Position numbers and translations under genes: made by a program. From Gautieria morchelliformis (taxonomy: Eukaryota > Basidiomycota > Agaricomycetes > Gomphales > Gomphaceae), in contig WHVA01000153.1 in the NCBI GenBank assembly GCA_015179125.1, forward strand, positions 158,511 through 222,510: DNA of 64,000 bases, written 5' to 3'. The notes beneath the pieces are model-generated. The model was not told the DNA's origin. It searched no databases and was given only the letters and a program-made list of their open reading frames with translations. Of this stretch, positions 36,538-54,272 are shown piece after piece (within the stretch, counting starts at the first letter, position 1; the number at the start of each line of letters is the position of its first letter).

Positions 36538-37836
36538 CAGGGAGGGGAAATCTGCTAACAGATCCCTGTCGGGAGACAGTGTGGGGCTTTTACCTAAAAC
36601 ACACCCCCCCCCCCTCCTTGTTGGTCAGGCTCCCTTGTTGCTGGCCTGGCTTTCGAGGTTCGCCCCCCAGCACTTGCAGCCTGTAGGGGCTGCAGTCAGG
36701 TTTGACATGGATATGATCCCACGCGGCTCTTGGCTATTAGTATCAATAATTGTGATCATTTTAAAGTAATATTTTTATGTTTTCTGTTTTCACCTGTCTC
36801 CCGTTTCTCCACCCAGGAGCTCCTTGTCCCATCTTTTGATGGCCAAGTTACCTTTGTGTAGCACTACTGCTAAGTTTGTGTCTGCCCATTTTTCCTTGAA
36901 GCGCTTTATATCCTGGCTTTTCTTTTGCTTTTCCTTTCTTATCAGGGCCATTGAGTGGTCCCTTTGTATCAGGTGGTTTATTTCTGCCACCCATCTTGCC
37001 TTCACTTCTTTCTTTGTGAAGGTTTTTTCACTGATTGTTGATTCGTTTCTTAGGAGCCACACTGTCTCTAGGACCAGGTCCTTGTATTTCTGCAGCGTTT
37101 GTGTTGAGGAGAAGCATTCTGCTTTTTTTACAGCTTCTAGTCCTTTTAGCAGGTTTTCATTTAGGGAGGATGTTTATAAATGTCATATATATGTATATAG
37201 CTTAGCTCATCTATATTTCATAAAATATATCAAAATTGAGGCAGTTGCCAGCACCTGTAAGGCATGCTTAATCCTAGCCCCAAAGTTCTTTCTCACAGTC
37301 TGCTGCTCCCCCAGGAAAGGGTGTACACCCCATTGTCTAAACATCAATAGTTACACATCTTTGTACTATACATGCATATTATTTTAAACATACCTTCTAA
37401 TCAGATCTCTCAACCATATATAATAATATAGTACAGGTATGGTCCATACTTGCTTCTATATTCTGTGATTGTACATCTAACATGTTTCATGTATACTTTT
37501 AATATATAGTCATCCACATCCTCTCTGAAATTGCTCTGTTATATCAATACACACCATGCTTTAGCACATACAACCATATTTTTAAAATATCAGAACATTC
37601 AAAAAAATTTAGGATGTCCACAATACACAAGTTGCTCAAAATGATGGATTATGAATTTGGTTAGGGTTGATATTTTAAAAGATATCTAATATATCCTAGA
37701 AGAATATACATTGTTGTCAATGTGAACATCCTCCTAGGTGTATCCATTTGTTCACCCCTTCTTTTATCTCTGTTGTCTTGTTCCAGAGCGCTTCTGCTGC
37801 TTCCTGTCAAGATTGGTTTTCAGGCGTTAATCTCGT
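36502..37836 (-). mobile_element. LINE (non-LTR retrotransposon) 3' fragment
   Basis: A minus-strand element ends in a poly(A) tail seen as a run of more than 30 T at about 36502-36535. Upstream of the tail, the frame ending at 36790 encodes a C-terminal region with LVLETVWLLRNEST and KEVKARWVAEI, the W-RN...RW pattern found after the reverse transcriptase in fungal LINEs. The frame runs back to 37164, is interrupted by a MITE (37165-37734), and continues in the same frame from 37738 (ALWNKTTEIKEG). It is cut off near 37836 by an LTR-like repeat. The reverse transcriptase itself is absent. Confidence 0.6.
37165..37734. mobile_element. PIF/Harbinger-type MITE, 570 bp
   Basis: Ends are GGAGGATGTTTATAAATG and, on the other strand, GGAGGATGTTCACATTG. 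It is flanked by TAG on both sides (37162-37164 and 37735-37737), a 3-bp duplication as made by PIF/Harbinger transposases. Deleting it with one TAG leaves the interrupted LINE frame open. It is AT-rich and non-coding. The terminal GGAGGRTGTT is shared with the large element at 44481-53238, so the same transposase could have moved both. Confidence 0.78.
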
Positions 37837-43558: not shown

Positions 43559-44477
43559 TCACGTCAGTTTGGGAAGCAGCTGGGCTGCATCATCCCATTC
43601 TGGACCGCTGTGAGCTAGGGCATAGCGCTGCAGTTCCCTTACAGCCTGCAAGGCTTGCGCTGGTGCCATGAGAGGTGGGTGCTCTTCATCATCGCTGACT
43701 TCCATAGCTTCTTCAGGAGAAACATCAGCGATCACTTGCTCCACAATGTCCTCATCGCTCCACTCCTTTTCTGTCAACATTTCTCCCTCCATAGCAACCA
43801 TCTCTTCTGCTTTCAATTTGTTGCATTCTCCTATCTTGCGCTTAGCTAAGTCATCGATGGCCTGTTGCAGCAAATCAATTGACATTTGGACCGAAACGAC
43901 AACGATTGTGGTATGGGGCAGCGAGGGGGAGTTGGTGTGGAGCGGACTGCCATCCAAAGCTCGAGGGTTCACTATTTTGGTATGTTTCCAGCAGGCTGAA
44001 ATTGTTTCAGCGGTTATCACTCCCCAGGCTTCGTCTGCCATCCTCATCGCCATCAGCTGGTCAATCCTCCATATGTCCTGCTCACCCATCTCCTCTCTTT
44101 CGATCACATGCCTAATGTAGAACCTACGATAGTGGGATTTGAATGCCGCTATGATTCCAGCATCACACGGCTGAATCCGGGACATCATATTCAGGTCCAG
44201 GAATTCCACTCGAACATGGGTAAGCGTCGTAGAGTCCCAGATGTGTGAAGGTGCGTTATCAATCAACAACAGGATCTTGCGTTGCTGACATCGCATATCC
44301 TCATTTAAGCCTGACAGCCAACTAGAAATCCAGTGAGCTACATTTTTTTTCTTCCTTGTAAACACCATTGCTGAAATATACTCCCAACCATCCAGGCCTT
44401 TTTGTTCCAGTAGTAATTGAAGCCAAGTTGAGCACCGGTCTTTTTTTGGAAGCACCAAGGCCGTTGTGCATGCCGTA
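43559..44477 (-). pseudogene. pogo transposase, C-terminal part
   Basis: Continuation of the transposase after the insertion. It carries the second catalytic Asp in ILLLIDNAPSHIW and the third in IQPCDAGIIAAFKSHYRR, then a long C-terminal tail with acidic stretches (SDEDIVEQVIADVSPEEA). Directly next to the insertion the frame encodes WCFQKKTG and NYYWNKKAWM, typical of pogo/Tigger enzymes. About 40 codons later, at a run of T on the plus strand near 44342-44350, the frame shifts by one base into the long open frame. The gene is disrupted by both the insertion and this indel. Confidence 0.8.
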
Positions 44478-44480
44478 TAA
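44478..44480. other. Target-site duplication TAA, left copy
   Basis: TAA precedes GGAGGGTGTT. The matching copy is at 53239-53241. Removing the element with one copy restores an uninterrupted pogo reading frame. Confidence 0.85.
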
Positions 44481-45155
44481 GGAGGGTGTTTGGAATTACT
44501 ATAATATCAGATGTTTACTAATAAAAGTGACATTCCCATAAAATTCCATCTTTAAATAGTGATATCTTTTCTGAAACTATTCTATTATTAAAAAGCAATT
44601 CTGGGAAATAGTTCTCCATGTTACATGCTAAACAATTAAAGGTCATTTAATAGAATCCACTGTATATGATTTCCTTCTGTTTCTAGATATCTGTTAATAC
44701 TTTTGTTGGTACTCCATTTTTTAAAAACTAAACTGCAGTTCTTTCCATATAAAATATGTAAGATATTATTGGAGATTTTTCATGCTACAACCTTCCTAAT
44801 TAAGCAAACCCACCCAGGTATTCTTAGTATGTTGAATCAAATAGAAATATCTTCTAGTTAACTCACCCATTCCGAGGTAACACATATGTATTTAAAGGTG
44901 TCAATGGTATACACATGTATGAAATGTACTATCTAAGGGAGTATACCTTTTAAAATTCTTAAAGTTCTAACTCACCACAGTGTTTGATAATCTATTCAGC
45001 TCTTAAAAGATGCTTTGTTTCACGGTGTACAAATAAGTTTTAAAAATCCCAAAAGTTTTAAAATCTAAATTATGTTTAAAATAGATTTCAAGTATTTAAA
45101 TGATCTTAAGGAGATATTAGAGTTTGATACTTCTTATAGTTTCTGAACAACCTCC
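44481..45155. repeat. 675-bp terminal direct repeat, left copy
   Basis: Almost identical to 52564-53238; one difference seen by eye is TTCTGAAC against TTCCGAAC near the right end. The unit itself begins GGAGGGTGTTTGG and ends GAACAACCTCC, so each copy looks like a complete MITE. The left flank is TAA; the right flank is TTC, not TAA. No coding potential is seen. Confidence 0.9.
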
Positions 45156-45203
45156 TTCTTAAAATTTATCAGACTTCATCTTCCTTCTGTTTCCAATATT
45201 CAT

Positions 45204-45494
45204 CTATACACTCCGTTGTATCAAAGGCTTAACACCTTGCCAAGTTGCTTCTTCATATCCCTTCCATTTCACAAGATATTCTCTTAACTTCCCTTTGCCT
45301 CTATGGTCTATTATTTCCTCAATCTCATATGCATCCTCCTCCATCTCTTCATCATCACCCAATGTTATACTCAGGAACTCTCTTTGCAATTTGAGTAACT
45401 CCTGAGCATTACATCTGCTATCCTTCAATGATGGAAGATTTTCATATGTCTCTATATTTTCCTCTTTCCAGTAGTCAAACTCTGGGACAACCAT
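45204..45494 (-). CDS. Chromodomain segment in a frame overlapping the transposase end
   Basis: Encodes YEIEEIIDHRGKGKLREYLV followed by KWKGYEEATW, a clear chromodomain with the aromatic-cage type pattern (Y...W...). It overlaps the last 43 bases of the transposase in a different frame, and both frames read sensibly over the overlap (HSSWLSQSL against VVPEFDYWKEEN). I infer that it was the C-terminal domain of one transposase polypeptide and has been separated by a one-base shift; programmed frameshifting is a less likely alternative. Chromodomains bind methylated histone H3 and target gypsy integrases to heterochromatin, so here it may direct insertion into repeat-rich chromatin. Confidence 0.75.
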   Translation of the reverse strand: MVVPEFDYWKEENIETYENLPSLKDSRCNAQELLKLQREFLSITLGDDEEMEEDAYEIEEIIDHRGKGKLREYLVKWKGYEEATWQGVKPLIQRSV

Positions 45495-46513
45495 GAAGAG
45501 TGATAAGGCTGAGGTTGAATGTTACCCAAATTAACAAACTTTTTCACATTTAACAAGAGACATGCAAGCCTAAATTGGATTGTGAATACCTCAGCATCAG
45601 AAATTCTTATACCTCCTTCATTGCTGAGTTTCTTAAATGTGGTAACTAGTTCTCCAAAGACAGCTTCAATCTTAGACCTAAAGCTTCCAAAAGTTTTGTT
45701 GAAGGTTTTTTCTTCATTTGACAGGTCTATCCCTTTTGATTTACGTATAGGTACACAGAAATTAAGCATATCTAATTCAGTAGTACTTGTTATCTTGTTA
45801 AGATACTGGGTATATCCTCCATCTAATGCTATACAATCAAGCTTATTAATATGCTTTTCTAACTTCATCTTTCCAAACATAACTCCATCTGTATTATCTT
45901 TACATGGTACAGATTTAGATGTGAATAAAACCATTCCACCTGGATCGATACAAGCCTGTATACGAAGTCCAGAATTTTTGAATTTATATGAAAACATTCG
46001 TTCACTCTTCTCACCAATAAGAGTTACTCTAGTATCGTGTCCATCTATCATTAATGTTACATGTCTAAATAATGGAGGATTCTTCTGTGCAGAATGAATA
46101 CATATATCAATTGTTGAAAACATAGAACTTAGCATAGCTGTGATCCTTTTATCAATATCATTGGCTTGATTTATATAGAATTTTCTAAAAATATCATAAT
46201 AAATACTTTTGGGTATAAAGGCTGACATATCATTTAAGGAATAGCCTTGTAGTAGTTGATATAATATTAAAAGTCCTTTCTCCACATTTCTGTAAGGCCC
46301 AGGATAGTCTTGGGTAGGAAAGATTACAACAAGGAAGAAAAAGACAGGAATAATACCAAGTCTCTGAAGAACAATATCTTTAACATGGCTTATTCTATTG
46401 ACAGGTTTAGTATCAGACCTGTGGTACTTTGATGGTTTGATTTGAGGCCATTCTCTATAAAGGAACTTCCATTGTTGATCCATCAGCTTATTAAATTCTT
46501 CGAGAAGAGACAT
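45452..46513 (-). CDS. PIF/Harbinger-like DDE transposase (DDE_Tnp_4 type)
   Basis: 353 residues from ATG at 46513. Residues 79-112 look like the helix-turn-helix that precedes the catalytic core (LLILYQLLQGYSLNDMSAFI). Catalytic candidates are D157 in TLMIDGHDTRV, D231 in DCIALDGGYTQY and E283 in SKIEAVFGELVTTFKKL, with the spacing and local context of the DDE_Tnp_4 family. The 3-bp TAA target duplication agrees with the class. The usual Myb/SANT partner of Harbinger elements is not recognised in the element. The frame is intact up to its C-terminus, where the chromodomain frame begins. It is encoded on the same strand as the Rep-like gene, with 118 bases between them. Confidence 0.82.
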   Translation of the reverse strand: MSLLEEFNKLMDQQWKFLYREWPQIKPSKYHRSDTKPVNRISHVKDIVLQRLGIIPVFFFLVVIFPTQDYPGPYRNVEKGLLILYQLLQGYSLNDMSAFIPKSIYYDIFRKFYINQANDIDKRITAMLSSMFSTIDICIHSAQKNPPLFRHVTLMIDGHDTRVTLIGEKSERMFSYKFKNSGLRIQACIDPGGMVLFTSKSVPCKDNTDGVMFGKMKLEKHINKLDCIALDGGYTQYLNKITSTTELDMLNFCVPIRKSKGIDLSNEEKTFNKTFGSFRSKIEAVFGELVTTFKKLSNEGGIRISDAEVFTIQFRLACLLLNVKKFVNLGNIQPQPYHSSWLSQSLTTGKRKI

Positions 46514-46631
46514 GATAAATGCTATAAACTATGGTTAGATGGATGAATATTCAATTTAATAGATCTGATTGTGGTCTATTGGATTTTTAAATATTATTCT
46601 CTATTCTTAGTCTTCGTACTTTGTCAATTAT

Positions 46632-47387
46632 TCATTCTTCATCTGATGTTTCTCTGCTATCAGATTGATCACTAAGGTTACTTAGAGATTCTCTACATAG
46701 TTCCACATTAATGTCTCTACCTCCAGGTATTAAGTTCTGAGTTATGAAATAGGTCTTCTTGGTTTTATCAATCATTAACTTACAAAGTTGTTCTCCACAT
46801 CTGATTTTCAGCAATGAACTGTCATTACAATCTATTACATTGAGGAATAAATATTCTCTTCCTCTCCATTCAGACATTCCTTTTGCTATAGCCTGATATC
46901 TTGAATATGGTTCCAATATGCTATATGCCGCTTGGTAACCATTGAAGCGTGTTATATCTTCTAAATCTTCTGCCTCAGATACTTCTATTATCTGTGCTAG
47001 AGGATTATCACTTGGTCTAATCCTAAAATCGGGCCAGCCTATATTAATCCCTTGGTATTCTACTAGTCCTACATCTTCTGGATATAGCTGAGCCCTACTT
47101 TGTGGATATAATCCCCTCTGAGGACCTGGGATAAGAGTAATTGCATTAGTTACCCTCCTATATTCTTTACAGGTTTCTCCATCAATATCTACAATGATAA
47201 GTTTTGTAGTCATTTCATTGAAGCTGTAGTTTGCTATTAATGTTTTCAAGTCGTCATTTTGTGATATTGTATTATAACACCCTTGCATTTTCTTTGTTAT
47301 GGAGTTCCACCAGTGACAATATGCAAACATATTATCACTCTTTAGGTACACCATTATTACTTGGTCCTTATGTATTTTGTCTATCAA
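46632..47387 (-). CDS. C-terminal part of the Rep-like gene, or an overlapping second gene
   Basis: About 250 codons open in the frame next to the Rep-like frame. The first in-frame start-like codon is TTG, not ATG, and the frame stays open upstream into the end of the Rep-like frame (TYKVANFTKPHLIDKIHKD). I therefore infer one longer gene with a one-base indel near 47400-47430. The product is mixed alpha/beta (TTKLIIVDIDGETCKEYRR, REYLFLNVIDCNDSS) and ends in an acidic Ser-rich tail (SDQSDSRETSDEE). No family is recognised; it is too short on motifs to call a polymerase or nuclease. Confidence 0.5.
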   Translation of the reverse strand: MIDKIHKDQVIMVYLKSDNMFAYCHWWNSITKKMQGCYNTISQNDDLKTLIANYSFNEMTTKLIIVDIDGETCKEYRRVTNAITLIPGPQRGLYPQSRAQLYPEDVGLVEYQGINIGWPDFRIRPSDNPLAQIIEVSEAEDLEDITRFNGYQAAYSILEPYSRYQAIAKGMSEWRGREYLFLNVIDCNDSSLLKIRCGEQLCKLMIDKTKKTYFITQNLIPGGRDINVELCRESLSNLSDQSDSRETSDEE

Positions 47388-48240
47388 ATGAGGCTTTGTA
47401 AAATTTGCAACCTTGTAAGTACTTTCTTTTGGTTCTGGTGAATTTCTTAATATAATAATCTAAGTTGCGAATTTCTTGACCATAGAACTTCATTTCTATC
47501 CTTGTAAGTCCAACTTTTCTTGTTCTTTCAAATGTTCTCTCCATAGAATCTGTAGGATCTACAAACATATTATGTATTCTAGATCCTAGAGTGGTTCTAA
47601 CACTAGAGCTCTCTAGCATCTGGATGAACTTGTTATACACTTTAATCCTAAGAAGAGTTCTTCCAGTATCTTCTGAAGGATCTCTATTATAGAAAGATAT
47701 ACAATTCTTCCCTACCTTATATAGATCACTGACAATGAGTCTTCTCTCTATTCCTCTCTCTAGAATATGTTCTTCTACTATCTCCCTATTTGTTATATAT
47801 GGAACATCTTGAGTAATGTCAATGTCGTGGAGAATCACATTGTTAGATTTTATATTTTCAAGGAAATAGAGAACTTTCTCAATACTAACCTCTGATAGTG
47901 AAATCTTGAGAGAGAAGTATTGAGTCCCTTTTGGAGCAATGTCATCCTTTATCAATTCTGAAATTCCTTTATGGGCAGCAAGAAGATCTATCTTGAAAGA
48001 ATTGTCAAAGTGATCTTTGCATTGATGACGTATCTCATCTATTCTGTTCTTACCAATGGACCAGAGAATAACACTGTCACAAAAGATTGGAACACCATAG
48101 TCAAGGGAGGGTATTAATACTTTGAAATCAGTTGTATAATCTGCCTCTGCTATATCTGGAGGATTATGCTCCCTAATAATAGAGACAATTGTACGTATTA
48201 TCCTATTCCTTGTCTCTCTAGTACTATTAATAGTATTCAT
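47368..48240 (-). CDS. Rep_trans/RstA-like replication initiator (putative)
   Basis: 290 residues from ATG at 48240. Three stretches occur in the order and with the character found in the Rep_trans family of rolling-circle initiators: HDIDITQD (138-145), RIKVYNK (198-204) and LTRIEMKFYG (245-254). In that family the first is the acidic strand, the second contains a Tyr-x-Lys signature and the third an R-x-E strand. The match is by eye and motif-based, so it needs a profile search. If correct, Y202 is a candidate nicking residue. The gene lies 93 bases from the divergent small Cys-protein gene at 48334 and probably shares a promoter with it. Confidence 0.45.
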   Translation of the reverse strand: MNTINSTRETRNRIIRTIVSIIREHNPPDIAEADYTTDFKVLIPSLDYGVPIFCDSVILWSIGKNRIDEIRHQCKDHFDNSFKIDLLAAHKGISELIKDDIAPKGTQYFSLKISLSEVSIEKVLYFLENIKSNNVILHDIDITQDVPYITNREIVEEHILERGIERRLIVSDLYKVGKNCISFYNRDPSEDTGRTLLRIKVYNKFIQMLESSSVRTTLGSRIHNMFVDPTDSMERTFERTRKVGLTRIEMKFYGQEIRNLDYYIKKFTRTKRKYLQGCKFYKASFDRQNT

Positions 48241-48333
48241 TTCCTATCACTAGTATATCAGTTCATAATAATTCAATTTAGGAAAGTAAAATGATTGATG
48301 AACAGTATAAACTAATCTTTTAACTAAGACAGA
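48241..48333. promoter_or_regulatory. Short divergent intergenic region
   Basis: A 93-bp AT-rich gap separates two genes that start outward (48240 minus, 48334 plus), so it must hold both promoters. No specific motif is claimed. Confidence 0.4.
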
Positions 48334-48717
48334 ATGTCAGGTAAGAAACCAGATCTAAACAAAAAACTAGGTGACTTCTTAAAGGACAATGATTTAGAAG
48401 ACTACATCATAAAACCAATTACTAAGAATGACAAGAGGAAAACATTAGGAGAGTATATGAAAGAAAATGGAATAGATGATATAGGTGTCTTTAGTATAAA
48501 AGATGAAGATGAAAGAGATGTAGTTAAAGAAGTTCGTATTTGCTTTAAGTGTAAAAAATCTGATGTTGAATTTTATGAGTCTAGTGCTACTAGGTATTGT
48601 AAAGGGTGTTGGAGGGACTACATGAAGGCATACAATAAAAAGAAACGGAAAGAAGTTAAAGATACACTAGAAAACTTAAAAGATGGGATTAAAAAATTAT
48701 CAATTGATAGAGTTTAG
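48334..48717 (+). CDS. Small paired-cysteine zinc-binding-like protein 1
   Basis: 127 residues. The N-terminal half is charged (KKLGDFLKDNDLEDYI and a partial repeat, KTLGEYMKENGIDD). The C-terminal half has CFKCKKSDVEFYESSATRYC followed by KGCWRDYMKAYNKKKR: CxxC...FY...CxxC, then a basic stretch. Similar short motifs are common in phage and large-DNA-virus proteins next to HNH nucleases; here no nuclease follows. A second gene in the same element (50126) has the same layout, so the two are probably paralogues. A DNA-binding or regulatory role is plausible but not shown. Confidence 0.6.
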   Translation: MSGKKPDLNKKLGDFLKDNDLEDYIIKPITKNDKRKTLGEYMKENGIDDIGVFSIKDEDERDVVKEVRICFKCKKSDVEFYESSATRYCKGCWRDYMKAYNKKKRKEVKDTLENLKDGIKKLSIDRV

Positions 48718-48765
48718 TTTATATTAAACTAAGAGTTTAGTTAGGTGAGTATATAAATTTTAAAA

Positions 48766-48895
48766 CAGCATAATCTCAAATAACATTCCTATTTATCATC
48801 ACTAGACTGGTTGATTTCTTGAAAGGAGCTTCAGCATAATCTCAATTCCTACTTATCATCACTAAACCTGGTTGATTTCTTAAAAGGAGACTTAT
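48766..48895. repeat. Tandem duplication of about 65 bp
   Basis: CAGCATAATCTCAA begins at 48766 and again at 48832; both are followed by TTATCATCACTA and CTGGTTGATTTCTT. The stop codon of the broken minus-strand gene lies in the second copy, so the gene end was duplicated. Confidence 0.8.
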
Positions 48896-49941
48896 TCCCA
48901 TTCGCCTTGATGAATAATGTATTCTTCTTAGGAGCTGCTACATCCTTTATCTCATCATCTGGCTCAACCTTGTTAACCCATTTCTTAATTTTACTATCCT
49001 CATCATCCTCCTTACTAGATGCAGATGGGATATCATCAATAATGCTGGCATTATCTGAGCCTTGGGCACCCCCACCTAGGAATCTAGTACCTGCATATGT
49101 TACAGGTTTGGATAGTTCTTCAATGGGTTTTGGACTGGTCTACTATATCATTATCTCTATGCATGATTTTCAATGAATCTAAATCTTTCTGATCAACCAA
49201 TGTATTGACCTGGGATCTGTCTTGAGATCCTCAAAGGCTGTGTAAGCCATGTATAATATTCCTACAGTATCCTTCACAGGAACCTGTTTAGGATATACCA
49301 AATGTTGGATATCAATCTTTACTTTTATCACACCCCATTCCTCTCCTTGCTCTATATCTGTTCCCCTGCAACTGATAACAAATTTTATTTTTTTCCAAAC
49401 TCTTGGTAGGAAAGCAATAATCCAAACCACCCATTATTTTCTCCCTAATATTAGAATTTCCAATGTAACTCCTTACTTCTTTATCATGGACCTTTCTTCC
49501 ATCAATCAATGAGATTCTTATCTCAGAAAATGAATCCAAGAATGATGAGAGTGGAACAAAGTCAACATATATACTATCAATCAAAATGTATTTCTTAAGG
49601 CCCTTTGTATTTAGTGCAGCTGAGAAGACAAATTCTTCTTTCTCTTTAACAAGATCAATTGGAGGTATATCATCTAAGTCAATCCGTCCTATCTTCTCTC
49701 TACTGTAAGGTTTAAATTCCCTGAGAGCTTGTAACATAGCATTTCTGGATACCTTAGGTGCCTTCCTTCTAGTTACATAATCAAATTTGTTTCCCTTCAT
49801 ATGAGCTGTTATATGATCAGTGAGACCACTTTTTAGATCTGGATACTTAAATCTGTGTCTGGTATCAGATACAGGAGTACCATCATCTTTACTATCTTTA
49901 TCAGACTGACGGGAGCTTACAATATTTGAGAGTACATTCAT
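48849..49941 (-). pseudogene. Broken beta-rich gene of unknown, possibly viral, origin
   Basis: Starts at ATG 49941. The first frame is open to about 49312. Similarity of composition and overlap shows that coding continues in other frames to 49179, again near 49190-49137, and finally from about 49135 to the stop at 48849, so at least three frame changes are present. The N-terminus is charged and likely disordered. The middle is rich in alternating hydrophobic residues (KKYILIDSIYVDFVPL, SEIRISLIDGRKV), suggesting a beta-sandwich. The layout of a hydrophobic strand, Pro, then a strand ending in D-x-R loosely resembles the 30K superfamily of viral movement proteins or single-jelly-roll proteins; this is a weak visual impression only. 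The C-terminal part is acidic and Lys-rich. Confidence 0.45.
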
Positions 49942-50125
49942 GATGCCTATTACACACAATGACCTACTATTGTCCTACTACATATATTCAATCTGGAACT
50001 AATTCAATTTTTGAATCTGCTCACCACATTACTAAATAATACATTTCTATAGTAACTATATAGCACTACTAATATATAACCCTAAAAATGAATATTGTTG
50101 ACTATCACATACTCTTATAACAACA
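49942..50125. promoter_or_regulatory. Divergent intergenic region
   Basis: 184 AT-rich bases between the starts of the minus-strand broken gene and the plus-strand small Cys-protein gene. It should hold both promoters; no defined motif is claimed. Confidence 0.35.
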
Positions 50126-50482
50126 ATGAAGTTCTGCATAGGATGCGAGGAAAAGAGAATGGATGTATTCTTTTATAGAGAACGAGATTCACGTTGTAAA
50201 GACTGTATAAACAAATATCAGAGGGATCGAAGAAGAAAAATAAAAGAGGAAAAACAGTCAGAGGATATAGTTGATAAGTTGTTTGATAAGTTATTTGAAG
50301 AAAGAGGCTCTGCATCCAATGCAGATGTTTTCCATAAGTTGGAGGAAATAAATGATAAGTTGTTTAAAGAGAGATGCTCTACACTTCATGAAGATATTCT
50401 TGAGAAGTTGGAGGAAATCAATGATAAACTCGATAATTTAATAATAAATAAGGATAGATCTGGGAAAGCCTGTAAGAGGTAA
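50126..50482 (+). CDS. Small paired-cysteine zinc-binding-like protein 2
   Basis: 118 residues. The N-terminus is CIGCEEKRMDVFFYRERDSR followed by CKDCINKYQRDRRRK, the same CxxC...FY...CxxC-Y...R layout as the protein at 48334. The rest is a predicted coiled coil with an internal repeat, KLEEINDKLFKER and KLEEINDKLDNL, which suggests oligomerisation. Its 3' end converges on the helicase gene with only 39 bases between stops. Confidence 0.6.
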   Translation: MKFCIGCEEKRMDVFFYRERDSRCKDCINKYQRDRRRKIKEEKQSEDIVDKLFDKLFEERGSASNADVFHKLEEINDKLFKERCSTLHEDILEKLEEINDKLDNLIINKDRSGKACKR

Positions 50483-50521
50483 ACACTGTTCTGAAATTTT
50501 AAAAACCAACTATATCTTATA

Positions 50522-51928
50522 TTATTCACAATCGATAAAAACACATGTTACATTCTTCACAAGTCCATAAATCTCCTCATATCCTTCATTCCTTAACTCT
50601 GTTAAGAAAGATGTGAATAATGGGATATTTCTTCCAGGACATGATTGCCGGAACCAGTCTTTGAAGTTATCATACAAATCCAAAGCCTGTAAGTTTTTAC
50701 CAGGACTGGAGAGTCCAGTTCTTATATACTTCAAAACATAATTATTAAGTGTTATATACTCTGAAGTCTTATCCTTAATATACTGAGGAATATTCAGGCC
50801 CTCCTTAACAAATCTTGAATATTCATCTAGAATCATAGCCATAAATATTTTTCTATACTTGAAAATCTTTTCCTCCATCTCTACATCTTCAGAAAAAACA
50901 TATTCACCACCATCCATAGAATCAGTAAAGGTACTTTCAAATGGTATTACAACTATCCTCCTTCTGAAGGGTACGTCCATACCTGGCACTTCAAGTGCAT
51001 TGTTGGCCACAACAACTATCTTAGCTCTAAACTCCATACTTTCACTAGAGTTGAATAATCCTCTTGAGTATATTTTATCATTACCTGTCAACTCCTTAAT
51101 TCTACCTACTTGTATTTTTTCCTCAGGATTGGGTTCTTGTAAGAAAACAGCCAACTTATTCTTTGCATATTGTATATCTGGAGTAGCATCAGAAGAGTTA
51201 GCTCTTTTACCAGTAATCAAGGATGTGGAAAGACAAGCTGCATAATCACCAAGAATAGATGAAATAAATCTTTGCATTAATGTCTTAGCATTATTTCCTT
51301 TCCCCCACCATACATAGAATACCTTATATTTGTTATAGCCCTCAAGCATAGAAGCACATGTTCGTATGAAAAAATCTAATACATCATTTCTTGGGAAAAT
51401 TTGTTTTAGTATCTTCATGAATTCAACTAAATCCTCATCTCTATATTTCTTTTTATATTTAACCCCGCATGTCATTGAAATATAGTCAGAAGATAAGGTC
51501 TTTCTAAAAGATTTGGAGTTAATATCATAGGTCCCGTTCTTCATTCCCAAAAGACCTACATTAGAGTTAAGTTTGCCTACAAATTTAGGATCTCCCAGCT
51601 TATAAGATACGGCCTTCATCAACCTCATGGTAGTAATAGAAGAACCAAGATATCTGATAATGTCCTTAACAGGAATGTCATCCTTGGGTATATCATCACG
51701 GAGAAAAGATACAAATGTTTCCGATATGATATTCCACAAGTATTCACCCCCATCCTTCTGCCAAGTTCCATCTTCAAAATACCACCATTCTTTATCGGAG
51801 TGAACTAATTCTCCAACAAGAAGTTCATACAGAACACCAACAAGGATATTATCACAATGGCTACCTATCCGTTCTATGCAAGATAGCTCTTGTAACTTAG
51901 ATAAAGCCTTCTCATATCTGCCAGTCAT
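50522..51928 (-). CDS. D5-type superfamily 3 helicase (primase-helicase C-terminal family)
   Basis: 468 residues, uninterrupted, from ATG at 51928. The N-terminal part has W48-Y50...W56 (EWWYFEDGTWQKDG), the D5_N pattern. The ATPase core has a Walker A at 209-216 (GKGNNAKT), a Walker B at 258-267 (KLAVFLQEPN), motif C at 303-310 (KIVVVANN) and an arginine-rich strand (FRRRIVVIPF, 321-330). These are the marks of the D5/P4-type SF3 helicases of large DNA viruses, phages and plasmids. The canonical Gly before Lys in Walker A is Ala (A214), a possible loss or tuning of activity. No primase domain precedes it. Its 5' end lies 92 bases from the palindrome, a layout expected for an origin next to its helicase. 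Confidence 0.85.
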   Translation of the reverse strand: MTGRYEKALSKLQELSCIERIGSHCDNILVGVLYELLVGELVHSDKEWWYFEDGTWQKDGGEYLWNIISETFVSFLRDDIPKDDIPVKDIIRYLGSSITTMRLMKAVSYKLGDPKFVGKLNSNVGLLGMKNGTYDINSKSFRKTLSSDYISMTCGVKYKKKYRDEDLVEFMKILKQIFPRNDVLDFFIRTCASMLEGYNKYKVFYVWWGKGNNAKTLMQRFISSILGDYAACLSTSLITGKRANSSDATPDIQYAKNKLAVFLQEPNPEEKIQVGRIKELTGNDKIYSRGLFNSSESMEFRAKIVVVANNALEVPGMDVPFRRRIVVIPFESTFTDSMDGGEYVFSEDVEMEEKIFKYRKIFMAMILDEYSRFVKEGLNIPQYIKDKTSEYITLNNYVLKYIRTGLSSPGKNLQALDLYDNFKDWFRQSCPGRNIPLFTSFLTELRNEGYEEIYGLVKNVTCVFIDCE

Positions 51929-52020
51929 ATTCTATCATATACTATTACAGACCATAAAAAATCAATTTCTAAATATATATCTAACAACAATAAGATTATT
52001 AATAATTTGCTAAAAAGAAG

Positions 52021-52555
52021 ATCACAGAATACAAATTGCATAATTTTACCACAGCAAAATAATATGATATATAGGGAAGGGGTGGGAGGTCACCGGCCTT
52101 GGGTCTGGATGCCAAACAGTAACATGGCTAACCGCTTAGGGGGGTCCCGCATGGTAAAACTCCCCACTTCAGCATCACATTTTTACCACTATCATTGATA
52201 ACATATAGATCAACATATCTTCTCATTAATTATATATAAATGTTACAATATCACTGTTTTGACCCTGTATTATTAACAAACCCTGTGTATGAACTGGGAA
52301 CAGTATAAATATGTCAAAACAGTGATATTGTAACATTTATATATAATTAATGAGAAGATATGTTGATCTATATGTTATCAATGATAGTGGTAAAAATGTG
52401 ATGCTGAAGTGGGGAGTTTTACCACGCGGGACCCCCCTAAGCGGTTAGCCATGTTACTGTTTGGCATCCAGACCCAAGGCCGGTGACCTCCCACCCCTTC
52501 CCTATATATCATATTATTTTGCTGTGGTAAAATTATGCAATTTGTATTCTGTGAT
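52021..52555. repeat. Near-perfect palindrome, 243-bp arms and 49-bp spacer
   Basis: The left arm is 52021-52263 and the right arm 52313-52555. They pair along their whole length with one mismatch noticed (CCCGCATGG against CCCGCGTGG). A GC-rich block of about 90 bp (GGGTGGGAGGTCACCGGCC and onward) sits inside otherwise AT-rich arms. The right arm ends 5 bases before the TAA of the second 675-bp repeat. It could be a hairpin replication origin, a fused hairpin telomere or a foldback insertion. It has no coding potential. Confidence 0.92.
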
Positions 52556-52563
52556 ATTCATAA

Positions 52564-53238
52564 GGAGGGTGTTTGGAATTACTATAATATCAGATGTTTA
52601 CTAATAAAAGTGACATTCCCATAAAATTCCATCTTTAAATAGTGATATCTTTTCTGAAACTATTCTATTATTAAAAAGCAATTCTGGGAAATAGTTCTCC
52701 ATGTTACATGCTAAACAATTAAAGGTCATTTAATAGAATCCACTGTATATGATTTCCTTCTGTTTCTAGATATCTGTTAATACTTTTGTTGGTACTCCAT
52801 TTTTTAAAAACTAAACTGCAGTTCTTTCCATATAAAATATGTAAGATATTATTGGAGATTTTTCATGCTACAACCTTCCTAATTAAGCAAACCCACCCAG
52901 GTATTCTTAGTATGTTGAATCAAATAGAAATATCTTCTAGTTAACTCACCCATTCCGAGGTAACACATATGTATTTAAAGGTGTCAATGGTATACACATG
53001 TATGAAATGTACTATCTAAGGGAGTATACCTTTTAAAATTCTTAAAGTTCTAACTCACCACAGTGTTTGATAATCTATTCAGCTCTTAAAAGATGCTTTG
53101 TTTCACGGTGTACAAATAAGTTTTAAAAATCCCAAAAGTTTTAAAATCTAAATTATGTTTAAAATAGATTTCAAGTATTTAAATGATCTTAAGGAGATAT
53201 TAGAGTTTGATACTTCTTATAGTTTCCGAACAACCTCC
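52564..53238. repeat. 675-bp terminal direct repeat, right copy
   Basis: Same length and nearly the same sequence as 44481-45155, in the same orientation. This copy has TAA on both sides (52561-52563 and 53239-53241). Confidence 0.9.
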
Positions 53239-53241
53239 TAA
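53239..53241. other. Target-site duplication TAA, right copy
   Basis: Matches 44478-44480. It lies inside the codon series encoding KLAPLV of the pogo transposase. Confidence 0.85.
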
Positions 53242-54272
53242 CTAGAGGCGCCAACTTTGTACTGCCATCTGCACTCGCTCCAAAGAGGTAAGTGATCCGA
53301 GTCTTGTCTCCTTTAATGCCTGACATCTGTTCTAATGCCAGTCCACGGTCTGGTGGCATACGAAAAAAAAAGCCCTGTTTCATCTGCATTAAATATGTCC
53401 TTGAGTGCGTATCCATCTGTTATTTTGCATATCCGTGCGATTGCAGCTGCTACATTTGTCTCTTTTACTGATCCTGCCTCGCCGTGTGACTTGAATTGTT
53501 TTAAATTGATCCGTTGCTTGAAAGAATCAAGCCAACCACTAGAGAATGACAGCCTCTTGGTAACTGGCATGCCGAGAAGTTCTTGAAAGGCATATGCCTT
53601 TGTCCGTACGAGATCGCCTGTCAACTTTGACCCTCTCCCTAGTGCCTGCAGTGCCCATTTCTTCAATGCATCATCAAGCTCAGGGTGCTCCACCTGACGT
53701 TTACGGGTAAACACCATGTCACTTGGATTCTTTGCCGCATGTTTAAGGAGCTGGGCACGCTCGTTCCAGATCCTTGAGATGGTGTGCTGTTTTATACCAG
53801 GGAATTTTGAGTGAAAATGTTTGACGACGGCCTTTTGGGTAATCTGTGGATAGTGTCTGTCAACCATGAACTGAATAATGTCAATCTTGTCCTTAAGAGT
53901 AAGATTTGACCGAGACCTCATTTTGGCTGTTACAAAAGCTGAGGATACTGTCCTTCTATGATGCACTGGCTTCTGTTGGATCATCTTTACATTCCCAGTA
54001 AGATCGTGCTCTTGCGATTTGGATTCTGTAACAACCGGTGGCATGAGCTCCGATGGGTCGGCTGCACAAGCAGGCATGGCTGGTCCATCATCTGGTTCAT
54101 CCCATTCCATCTCAGAAGCATCAAGAAGTTCTCCGTTAGAGCCACATGCCCATCTGGCTGGTTTGCTGAGGTCCATATGCGAAGAGTTTGTCCCAGTTTG
54201 GGCTTCTGAAGCGCTGAAACCACACCTGCGATAATGCATATTATAATTAAATTTGCCAAATATGTTATGCAT
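53239..54272 (-). pseudogene. pogo transposase, N-terminal part
   Basis: Holds the CENP-B-like N-terminal helix-turn-helix (SNLTLKDKIDIIQFMVDRHY), the Tc5-type second DNA-binding domain (HPELDDALKKWALQALGRG and SSGWLDSFKQRINLKQ) and the first catalytic Asp in IFNADETGLFF. After that, a run of nine A on the plus strand (53363-53371) shifts the frame by one base; the downstream frame continues with MPPDRGLALEQMSGIKGDKT and SADGSTKLAPLV up to the insertion at 53239. It ends mid-codon there and resumes at 44477. Confidence 0.82.

Follow-up and report, generated by a model that had tools for sequence, protein, structure and literature searches.

In the 122-Mb genome of Gautieria morchelliformis, a truffle-like gomphalean basidiomycete, a 64-kb stretch of the contig labelled C175 (the whole 64,000-nucleotide stretch is referred to below as the window) carries a mobile element of 8,758 bp at window positions 44481-53238. 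The element, the C175 copy of what we call family A, is a single inserted unit of the form repeat-core-repeat flanked by 3-bp duplications, and its core contains a DDE-chromodomain transposase, a Rep_trans-like protein, a D5-type superfamily 3 (SF3) helicase and a palindrome. We interpret it as a transposon of the PHIS type (PIF/Harbinger, ISL2EU, Spy, Pangu and Nuwa) that has a KolobokP-like layout and carries a rolling-circle-type replication module, and we infer an extrachromosomal step in its life cycle; we put the probability of this reading at about 0.58. A preliminary description of the same DNA had proposed a hybrid that integrates and may exist as an episome. What stands of that proposal is that a D5/SF3 helicase and a Rep_trans-like protein share one unit, inserted with a 3-bp duplication, with a DDE transposase of the PHIS/Harbinger type, while a Myb-like protein was not found among the eight open reading frames (ORFs) of the element that were scanned.

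The left boundary of the C175 copy is formed by TAA at 44478-44480 followed by GGAGGG from 44481, and the right one by CCTCC up to 53238 followed by TAA at 53239-53241; the flanking TAA duplications that had been described are thus exact. The insertion point falls between two halves of a transposase gene, both on the minus strand, in which profile scans detect HTH_Tnp_Tc5 and CENP-B_N (53316-54272) and DDE_1 (43562-44458), and which we take to be pogo-like. A search of the genome with the joined flanks gave eight matching rows, two of them the window itself; four loci outside the window span the junction, two along the whole query at 93% and two in pieces. Both full-length flank matches, on contigs C653 and C134, were checked base by base, and each of these paralogous empty sites has one TAA; therefore, the C175 insertion is real and precise. 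The G+C content in 2-kb windows is 33-37% across the unit and 44-63% elsewhere in the window.

The GGAGG ends seen in the preliminary description do exist, but they are not simple inverted ends of the whole element: they are part of two 675-bp direct repeats, at 44481-45155 and 52564-53238 (both on the plus strand). Each repeat carries its own imperfect inverted ends, GGAGGGTGTTTGGAATTACTATAAT and, read from the other side, GGAGGTTGTTCGGAAACTATAAG (the left repeat has the form GGAGGGTGTTTGGAA...TTCTGAACAACCTCC). A simple inverted-repeat Harbinger is ruled out by the long direct repeats. The two C175 repeats show one difference in 676 aligned columns, compared with 12-32 of 676 against ten other copies; for the C451 copy, the respective values are 7 of 676 within the pair and 11-32 against other copies. 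The repeat is also present on its own. A genome search with the 675-bp sequence, with 40 of 92 candidates scored, returned 41 rows corresponding to 40 copies, i.e., at least 40 exist, among which six rows are the C175, C179 and C451 pairs, one is the right end of a shortened copy on contig C180, and 33 lie outside the named elements. Both ends were read for 13 of these 33 outside copies, which represent eight distinct sites, and exact 3-bp duplications were present at six (TAA three times, ATA twice and TTT once). At one of the remaining two sites, a group of five copies with common flanks fits TTA plus one extra T; the other has a shortened left end. Overall, TAA is the commonest target duplication, and TTT, ATA, TAT and CAA are also seen. 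PIF/Harbinger transposons in the strict sense prefer TWA targets.

The transposase belongs, as had been claimed, to the DDE_Tnp_4 (PHIS/Harbinger) type: the DDE part at 45452-46513 on the minus strand matches PF13359 with an E-value of 1.2e-9, above the cut-off. A chromodomain part (45204-45494, minus strand; PF00385, 1.4e-7) is out of frame with it in C175, and the two share one frame in C279, C695 and a multicopy third family. The C175 copy is partly broken, with both the DDE-chromodomain transposase and the Rep-like protein interrupted by frame changes. The blocks DGHDT, DGGYT and FGE are kept in an alignment across families A, B and C, and we assume that the acids of the catalytic triad lie within them. 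The element shares with PHIS transposons the DDE_Tnp_4 domain with its three acidic blocks, inverted ends and a 3-bp target duplication; as no second, Myb/SANT-like protein was found among the scanned ORFs, it is not placed in PIF/Harbinger sensu stricto.

The predicted catalytic domain of the Rep_trans-like initiator is encoded at 47368-48240 and the C-terminal part, which is split off in C175, at 46632-47387, both on the minus strand. In other copies, the two constitute a single protein of about 556 aa (a 558-aa open frame in C179; 556 aa in P0121 and P0122), which rules out Rep and the neighbouring ORF251 (46635-47387) as two genes. The best Foldseek matches of the Rep-like protein are solved initiators of the pT181 (Rep_trans) type, with low TM-scores and tied Z values. 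In a motif comparison, made without superposition, Tyr202 and Lys204 are invariant (32 of 32 aligned rows), Gln207 is found in 31 of 32, and the candidate metal-binding acids in 28 of 29 to 31 of 32; the first basic residue of the motif is Lys instead of Arg, and the motif residues are nearly invariant even in members at 26% identity. At the level of sequence profiles, none of 31 Rep members scored above the curated cut-off of PF02486 (Rep_trans), and a PF02486 search of the genome gave no match, Bacillus subtilis alone being positive among 14 control genomes. Nor did Rep match the phage records searched. Compared with a viral structure library, the whole Rep gave one row below an E-value of 0.001 (an unnamed 301-aa protein, 2.0e-5), with inovirus G2P further down the list (3.0e-3). 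Matches in the PDB also include TBP and ribosomal S6, which cover the curved sheet or half of it; TBP is named as a topological look-alike in the accessible text of Carr et al. A Rep of the Helitron/HUH type is ruled out, no such domain being listed in profile scans of the element or of the Rep members. We consider the Rep-like protein a member of an unnamed family, assigned by its predicted structure and active-site residues and without a Pfam call; the Rep_trans likeness claimed earlier lies in the predicted fold and the candidate active site and does not extend to a profile match.

The helicase gene (50522-51928, minus strand; 468 aa) is open in C175, and its product is indeed a D5-type SF3 helicase, matching PF08706 (D5_N) at 3.5e-9, above the cut-off, and phrog_1156 at 3.7e-48. 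It further matches the phage 'DNA polymerase/primase' family phrog_2478 (3.9e-17), and against TIGR01613 it scores 108.5 bits, just below the cut-off of 108.7. A profile made from 18 helicase relatives matches poxvirus D5/E5 and, at 3.7e-22, primase C962R, presumably the African swine fever virus protein. Relatives beyond its own genome are 35-85% identical, the nearest among the matches listed being at 75-85%, followed by 58% and less; the named ones among them are from Ramaria rubella (58%) and one eukprot protein (43%), and the best phage or plasmid rows among those listed reach 21-26%. The ratio of nonsynonymous to synonymous substitution rates (dN/dS) between the C175 helicase and its C451 and C41 versions is 0.08-0.25, by which measure the gene appears to be under purifying selection over the longer divergence.

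The long palindrome of the preliminary description was recovered as two 247-bp arms (52017-52263 and 52313-52559) that are 99% complementary and enclose a 49-nt loop (52264-52312); in C175 it stands beside the right terminal repeat. Comparison of the two arms of one copy gives 2 differing positions of 242 in C175, 1 of 248 in C179, 3 of 250 in C451, 10 of 275 in C180, 1 of 286 in C41 and 4 of 226 in C695. When arms from the five copies of family A are compared with each other, there are 1-17 mismatches and 4-90 gap columns per 240, the gaps being partly due to differing outer ends. The arms of C175 or C41 have 6-17 mismatches plus gaps per 240 when compared with other family A copies, and are thus far more alike within a copy. 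The loop has one orientation in C175, C179 and C451 and the reverse one in C180 and C41, i.e., in two of five copies of family A. Such a combination of an inverted loop and like arms would result from inversion between arms or from copying through a hairpin.

Family A is represented by three repeat-core-repeat insertions (C175, C451 and C179), two of which have the full gene content. The C451 copy (63973-72783) contains the repeats, the palindrome, the helicase, a 215-aa ORF, a 127-aa protein, Rep and the transposase in the C175 order, with TAT on both sides and with stops in helicase, Rep and transposase. The C179 copy (114321-120719) has kept both repeats and lost an internal portion corresponding approximately to window 48637-51054; its duplications fit TTA with one extra T. 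Both copies are collinear with that of C175. The C180 copy consists of the right repeat, the palindrome, an open helicase and a Rep without residues 51-105, and ends within the C-terminal part of Rep, where third-family sequence starts. The C41 copy has a partial repeat at the contig start, the palindrome and a partial helicase; two extra ORFs in it are also present upstream of the C701 transposase and so may be ancestral rather than inserted.

A similar plan was found in family B, read at C695 (49337-55768) as a 6.4-kb unit that is flanked by CAA duplications and has direct repeats of about 559 bp, 98.6% identical. Its genes are those of a DDE-chromodomain transposase, whose N-terminal part is in another frame, and of a Rep that is read in the same frame as its C-terminal part; immediately next to one repeat there is a palindrome with a 50-nt loop and arms of 232 bp. 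Proteins of families A and B are 48-49% identical, and the order of modules differs. In the third, multicopy family, genome searches detected a DDE-chromodomain transposase but neither Rep nor helicase; a fragment like its right end lies in the window at 37188-37729. Separation of the transposase from the replication genes, each with independent ends, which would have reduced the unit to an accident, is thus not seen in families A and B, and the third family does have a transposase without detectable Rep or helicase. In other genomes, linkage is inferred from contigs of the same size: helicase P0009 shares a size of 54,482 bp with Rep P0131 and P0137, and Rep P0121 (86%) shares one of 5,721 bp with transposase P0155 (88%). 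Coincidences at 3,087 bp (P0002/P0125), 3,579 bp (P0145/P0217) and 7,228 bp (P0018/P0190, from different sources) are weak, with about one chance match of short sizes estimated for lists this long.

It is possible, at odds slightly short of even, that this fungal DDE transposon lineage is also a rolling-circle replicon, in which a Rep_trans-type initiator, here residing in a nuclear element of a eukaryote, an SF3 helicase and a conserved hairpin origin amplify the element extrachromosomally and feed repeat-core-repeat units to the transposase, and that its Rep represents a new family, related to initiators of bacterial plasmids and phages, to which an Actinomortierella protein also belongs. 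In our main interpretation, Rep would nick the origin through Tyr202, probably at or near the palindrome, and the SF3 helicase would unwind the DNA from the nicked origin. Replication would lead to circular or concatemeric extrachromosomal copies, (repeat-core)n, where every core is flanked by repeats. The transposase would then cut at the outer GGAGG ends and insert a repeat-core-repeat unit at 3-bp targets rich in A/T. A near-identical pair would result from replication that copies through a single repeat, and we propose this as the cause of the near-identity of the C175 repeats; solo repeats would be left by recombination between repeats or by transposition of a lone repeat.

A number of observations weigh against the interpretation of the element as a PHIS-type transposon with a replication module. 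No origin or nick site was identified in the element, no multimer of it was found, and the structural scores that relate Rep to pT181-type initiators are low and tied. In close comparisons there is no clear selection on any of the three proteins: dN/dS is 0.78 on four changes for Rep, 0.26-0.90 on few changes for the helicase (0.71-0.90 in pairs with C179 and C180) and 0.22-0.65 for the transposase. Synonymous divergence between C451 and C175 is 0.05 for the transposase and 0.27 for the helicase, and from these unequal values it follows that the modules have recombined. The C179 repeats differ from each other at 11 of 675 positions, and some pairs from different loci are closer (8 of 676); likewise, the C179 and C451 palindromes have 1-2 mismatches between copies, being as alike as arms within a copy. 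Finally, a single locus (C695) provides the complete plan of family B, and there is no helicase in it, since the helicase query matches only family A and its fragments in the genome; the helicase is therefore dispensable for that plan.

Alternatively, an episomal plasmid- or virus-like replicon may have gained a 675-bp MITE-like unit and may integrate by homologous recombination with solo units already present in the genome, the transposase moving the 675-bp unit only. Such a unit has inverted ends of its own, many copies outside full elements and 3-bp duplications at six of the eight distinct sites, and recombination of a circle with a solo copy gives an identical repeat-core-repeat structure with the duplication retained, a route drawn also for KolobokP in the accessible text of PMC9587614. 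The divergence of the C179 repeats is in line with it as well. We nevertheless consider this origin unlikely, because a single event or conversion fits the C175 pair (1 of 676 against 12-32 of 676 to other copies) better than the joining of two old repeats, and the transposase is in the core of both families A and B. We regard as similarly improbable that the element is a composite-like transposon of the ordinary kind, with Rep, helicase and palindrome either carried along as passengers or helping in transposition alone (e.g., in DNA binding or gap repair), and that no extrachromosomal replication takes place. The absence of the helicase from family B and the Rep dN/dS in close copies speak for this explanation; the motif residues of Rep that stay nearly invariant down to 26% identity, the apparent purifying selection on the helicase over longer divergence, and the homogeneity of palindrome arms together with loop inversion speak against it. 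Chance nesting of unrelated mobile elements, conceivable in a genome that is rich in nested repeats and has core fragments captured within another repeat family, is made untenable, or very nearly so, by the fact that families A and B both combine direct repeats and a palindrome with transposase and Rep, by the three family A repeat-core-repeat insertions and by the Rep-helicase and Rep-transposase pairs on same-sized contigs.

The preliminary description had also considered a DNA virus that acquired a transposase. Capture from a virus was not borne out: scans of IMG/VR with the helicase and Rep revealed no close relative, one helicase locus being at 25%, and of the capsid and DNA polymerase genes expected of a DNA virus or Polinton-like element, none had a family match above its cut-off among the ORFs scanned, with a minor capsid domain below it (0.058). 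Virus identity is ruled out on these grounds. The two paired-cysteine proteins of that description are both present as ORFs on the plus strand, one of 127 aa (48334-48717; weak phage HNH match, 0.0053) and one of 118 aa (50126-50482; weak endonuclease VII match, 1.9e-4). A 215-aa ORF without a family match (49312-49959, minus strand) is open in C451 also.

Pieces of the family A core were also found in other repeats. A captured chimera joins window 46822-47145 or 46997-47145 to 51488 onward with an identical junction and is located inside another repeat family, with which it has spread (loci L015-L018, L023-L026 and L028 on C154, C222, C648, C293, C311 and C399, and L027 on C449). Yet another repeat, roughly 3 kb or more in length and with many copies on few contigs, contains 78 bp of the helicase gene (window 50769-50846) at 90-95% identity (L029-L035 and L037-L040 on C1, C915, C237, C203 and C54). 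Family B elements and the C41 copy carry a tRNA-like gene without a clear anticodon (L071 1398-1468, which equals L019 647-717; L070 2931-3001; L065 2868-2938; L067 2611-2681). A conserved ORF of about 200-243 aa, for which Pfam gave no match, occurs in the C41 copy as well as in family B and the third family (L071 709-1440, L070 3014-3610, L090 627-1280) and may be a further gene of the element. A 70-aa ORF beside the C41 repeat (L071 309-518), also present upstream of the C701 transposase, has a tail-sheath domain match below the cut-off (2.8e-4), and a 125-aa ORF (L090 3066-3440) without a Pfam match contains a PDFT...LIVELK stretch, which to us is reminiscent of a PD-(D/E)XK nuclease.

The combination of transposase, Rep and SF3 helicase was not found in the open-access literature searched. 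If our interpretation is correct, the element joins cut-and-paste DDE insertion with self-encoded replication of the plasmid/phage type, which are normally separate in eukaryotes. Its helicase shares with D5/P4-type SF3 primase-helicases of phages, plasmids and large DNA viruses the D5_N domain and the SF3 core, as well as the profile matches to C962R, poxvirus D5/E5 and phage DNA primase families, and differs from the phage and plasmid proteins in the low identity of the best rows listed. With Rep_trans (PF02486) initiators and MOBT relaxases, as presented in the accessible text of PMC4797284 and PMC6499999, the Rep-like protein appears to have in common the predicted N-terminal fold, the [R/K]-x-Y-x-K-xx-[E/Q] motif and acidic residues elsewhere; those are bacterial and phage proteins, whereas the fungal one is below sequence thresholds, has Lys in place of Arg in the motif and possesses an additional conserved C-terminal half. 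The candidate active site of this unnamed family can be tested in vitro.

Judging by the accessible parts of PMC4482050 and PMC12730594, the element resembles PHIS transposons in its DDE_Tnp_4-type domain, in inverted ends starting with GG, as in many Pangu elements, and in 3-bp duplications. It departs from them in the fusion of a chromodomain to the transposase, in the long direct repeats, in the replication genes and in that no Myb/SANT protein was found among the scanned ORFs; in the main text of PMC4482050, the terms 'direct repeat', 'helicase' and 'chromo' are absent. The layout is closest to that of KolobokP, where, according to the accessible text of PMC9587614, a core with a DDD/E transposase in the internal region lies between two long direct repeats at the ends, of about 450 or 660 bp, each with short inverted ends, and solo repeats have target duplications. 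The authors of that work state that no other DNA transposon has a layout like it, and one of the routes they draw is circular. KolobokP encodes a Kolobok transposase and a His-Me nuclease and is found in animals, whereas the fungal element combines a transposase of the DDE_Tnp_4-chromodomain type with a Rep_trans-like protein, an SF3 helicase and a palindrome; as regards a His-Me finger nuclease, the element offers the weak endonuclease VII match of its 118-aa ORF. The composite, long terminal repeat-like layout would then have arisen in a second DDE superfamily, and excision from replicated concatemers would be a testable reason for it. A cut-and-paste transposase combined with replication genes is also known from Teratorn, a fusion of piggyBac and herpesvirus described in the accessible text of PMC10175614, which at about 180 kb comprises a whole herpesvirus and resides in fish, in contrast to the 8.8-kb fungal element with no capsid or DNA polymerase family above the cut-off. 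The origin proposed there for Teratorn is that a unit bounded on either side by a transposon copy was excised from concatemeric DNA, and, by analogy, a similar excision from concatemers would also explain the direct terminal repeats of the Gautieria element.

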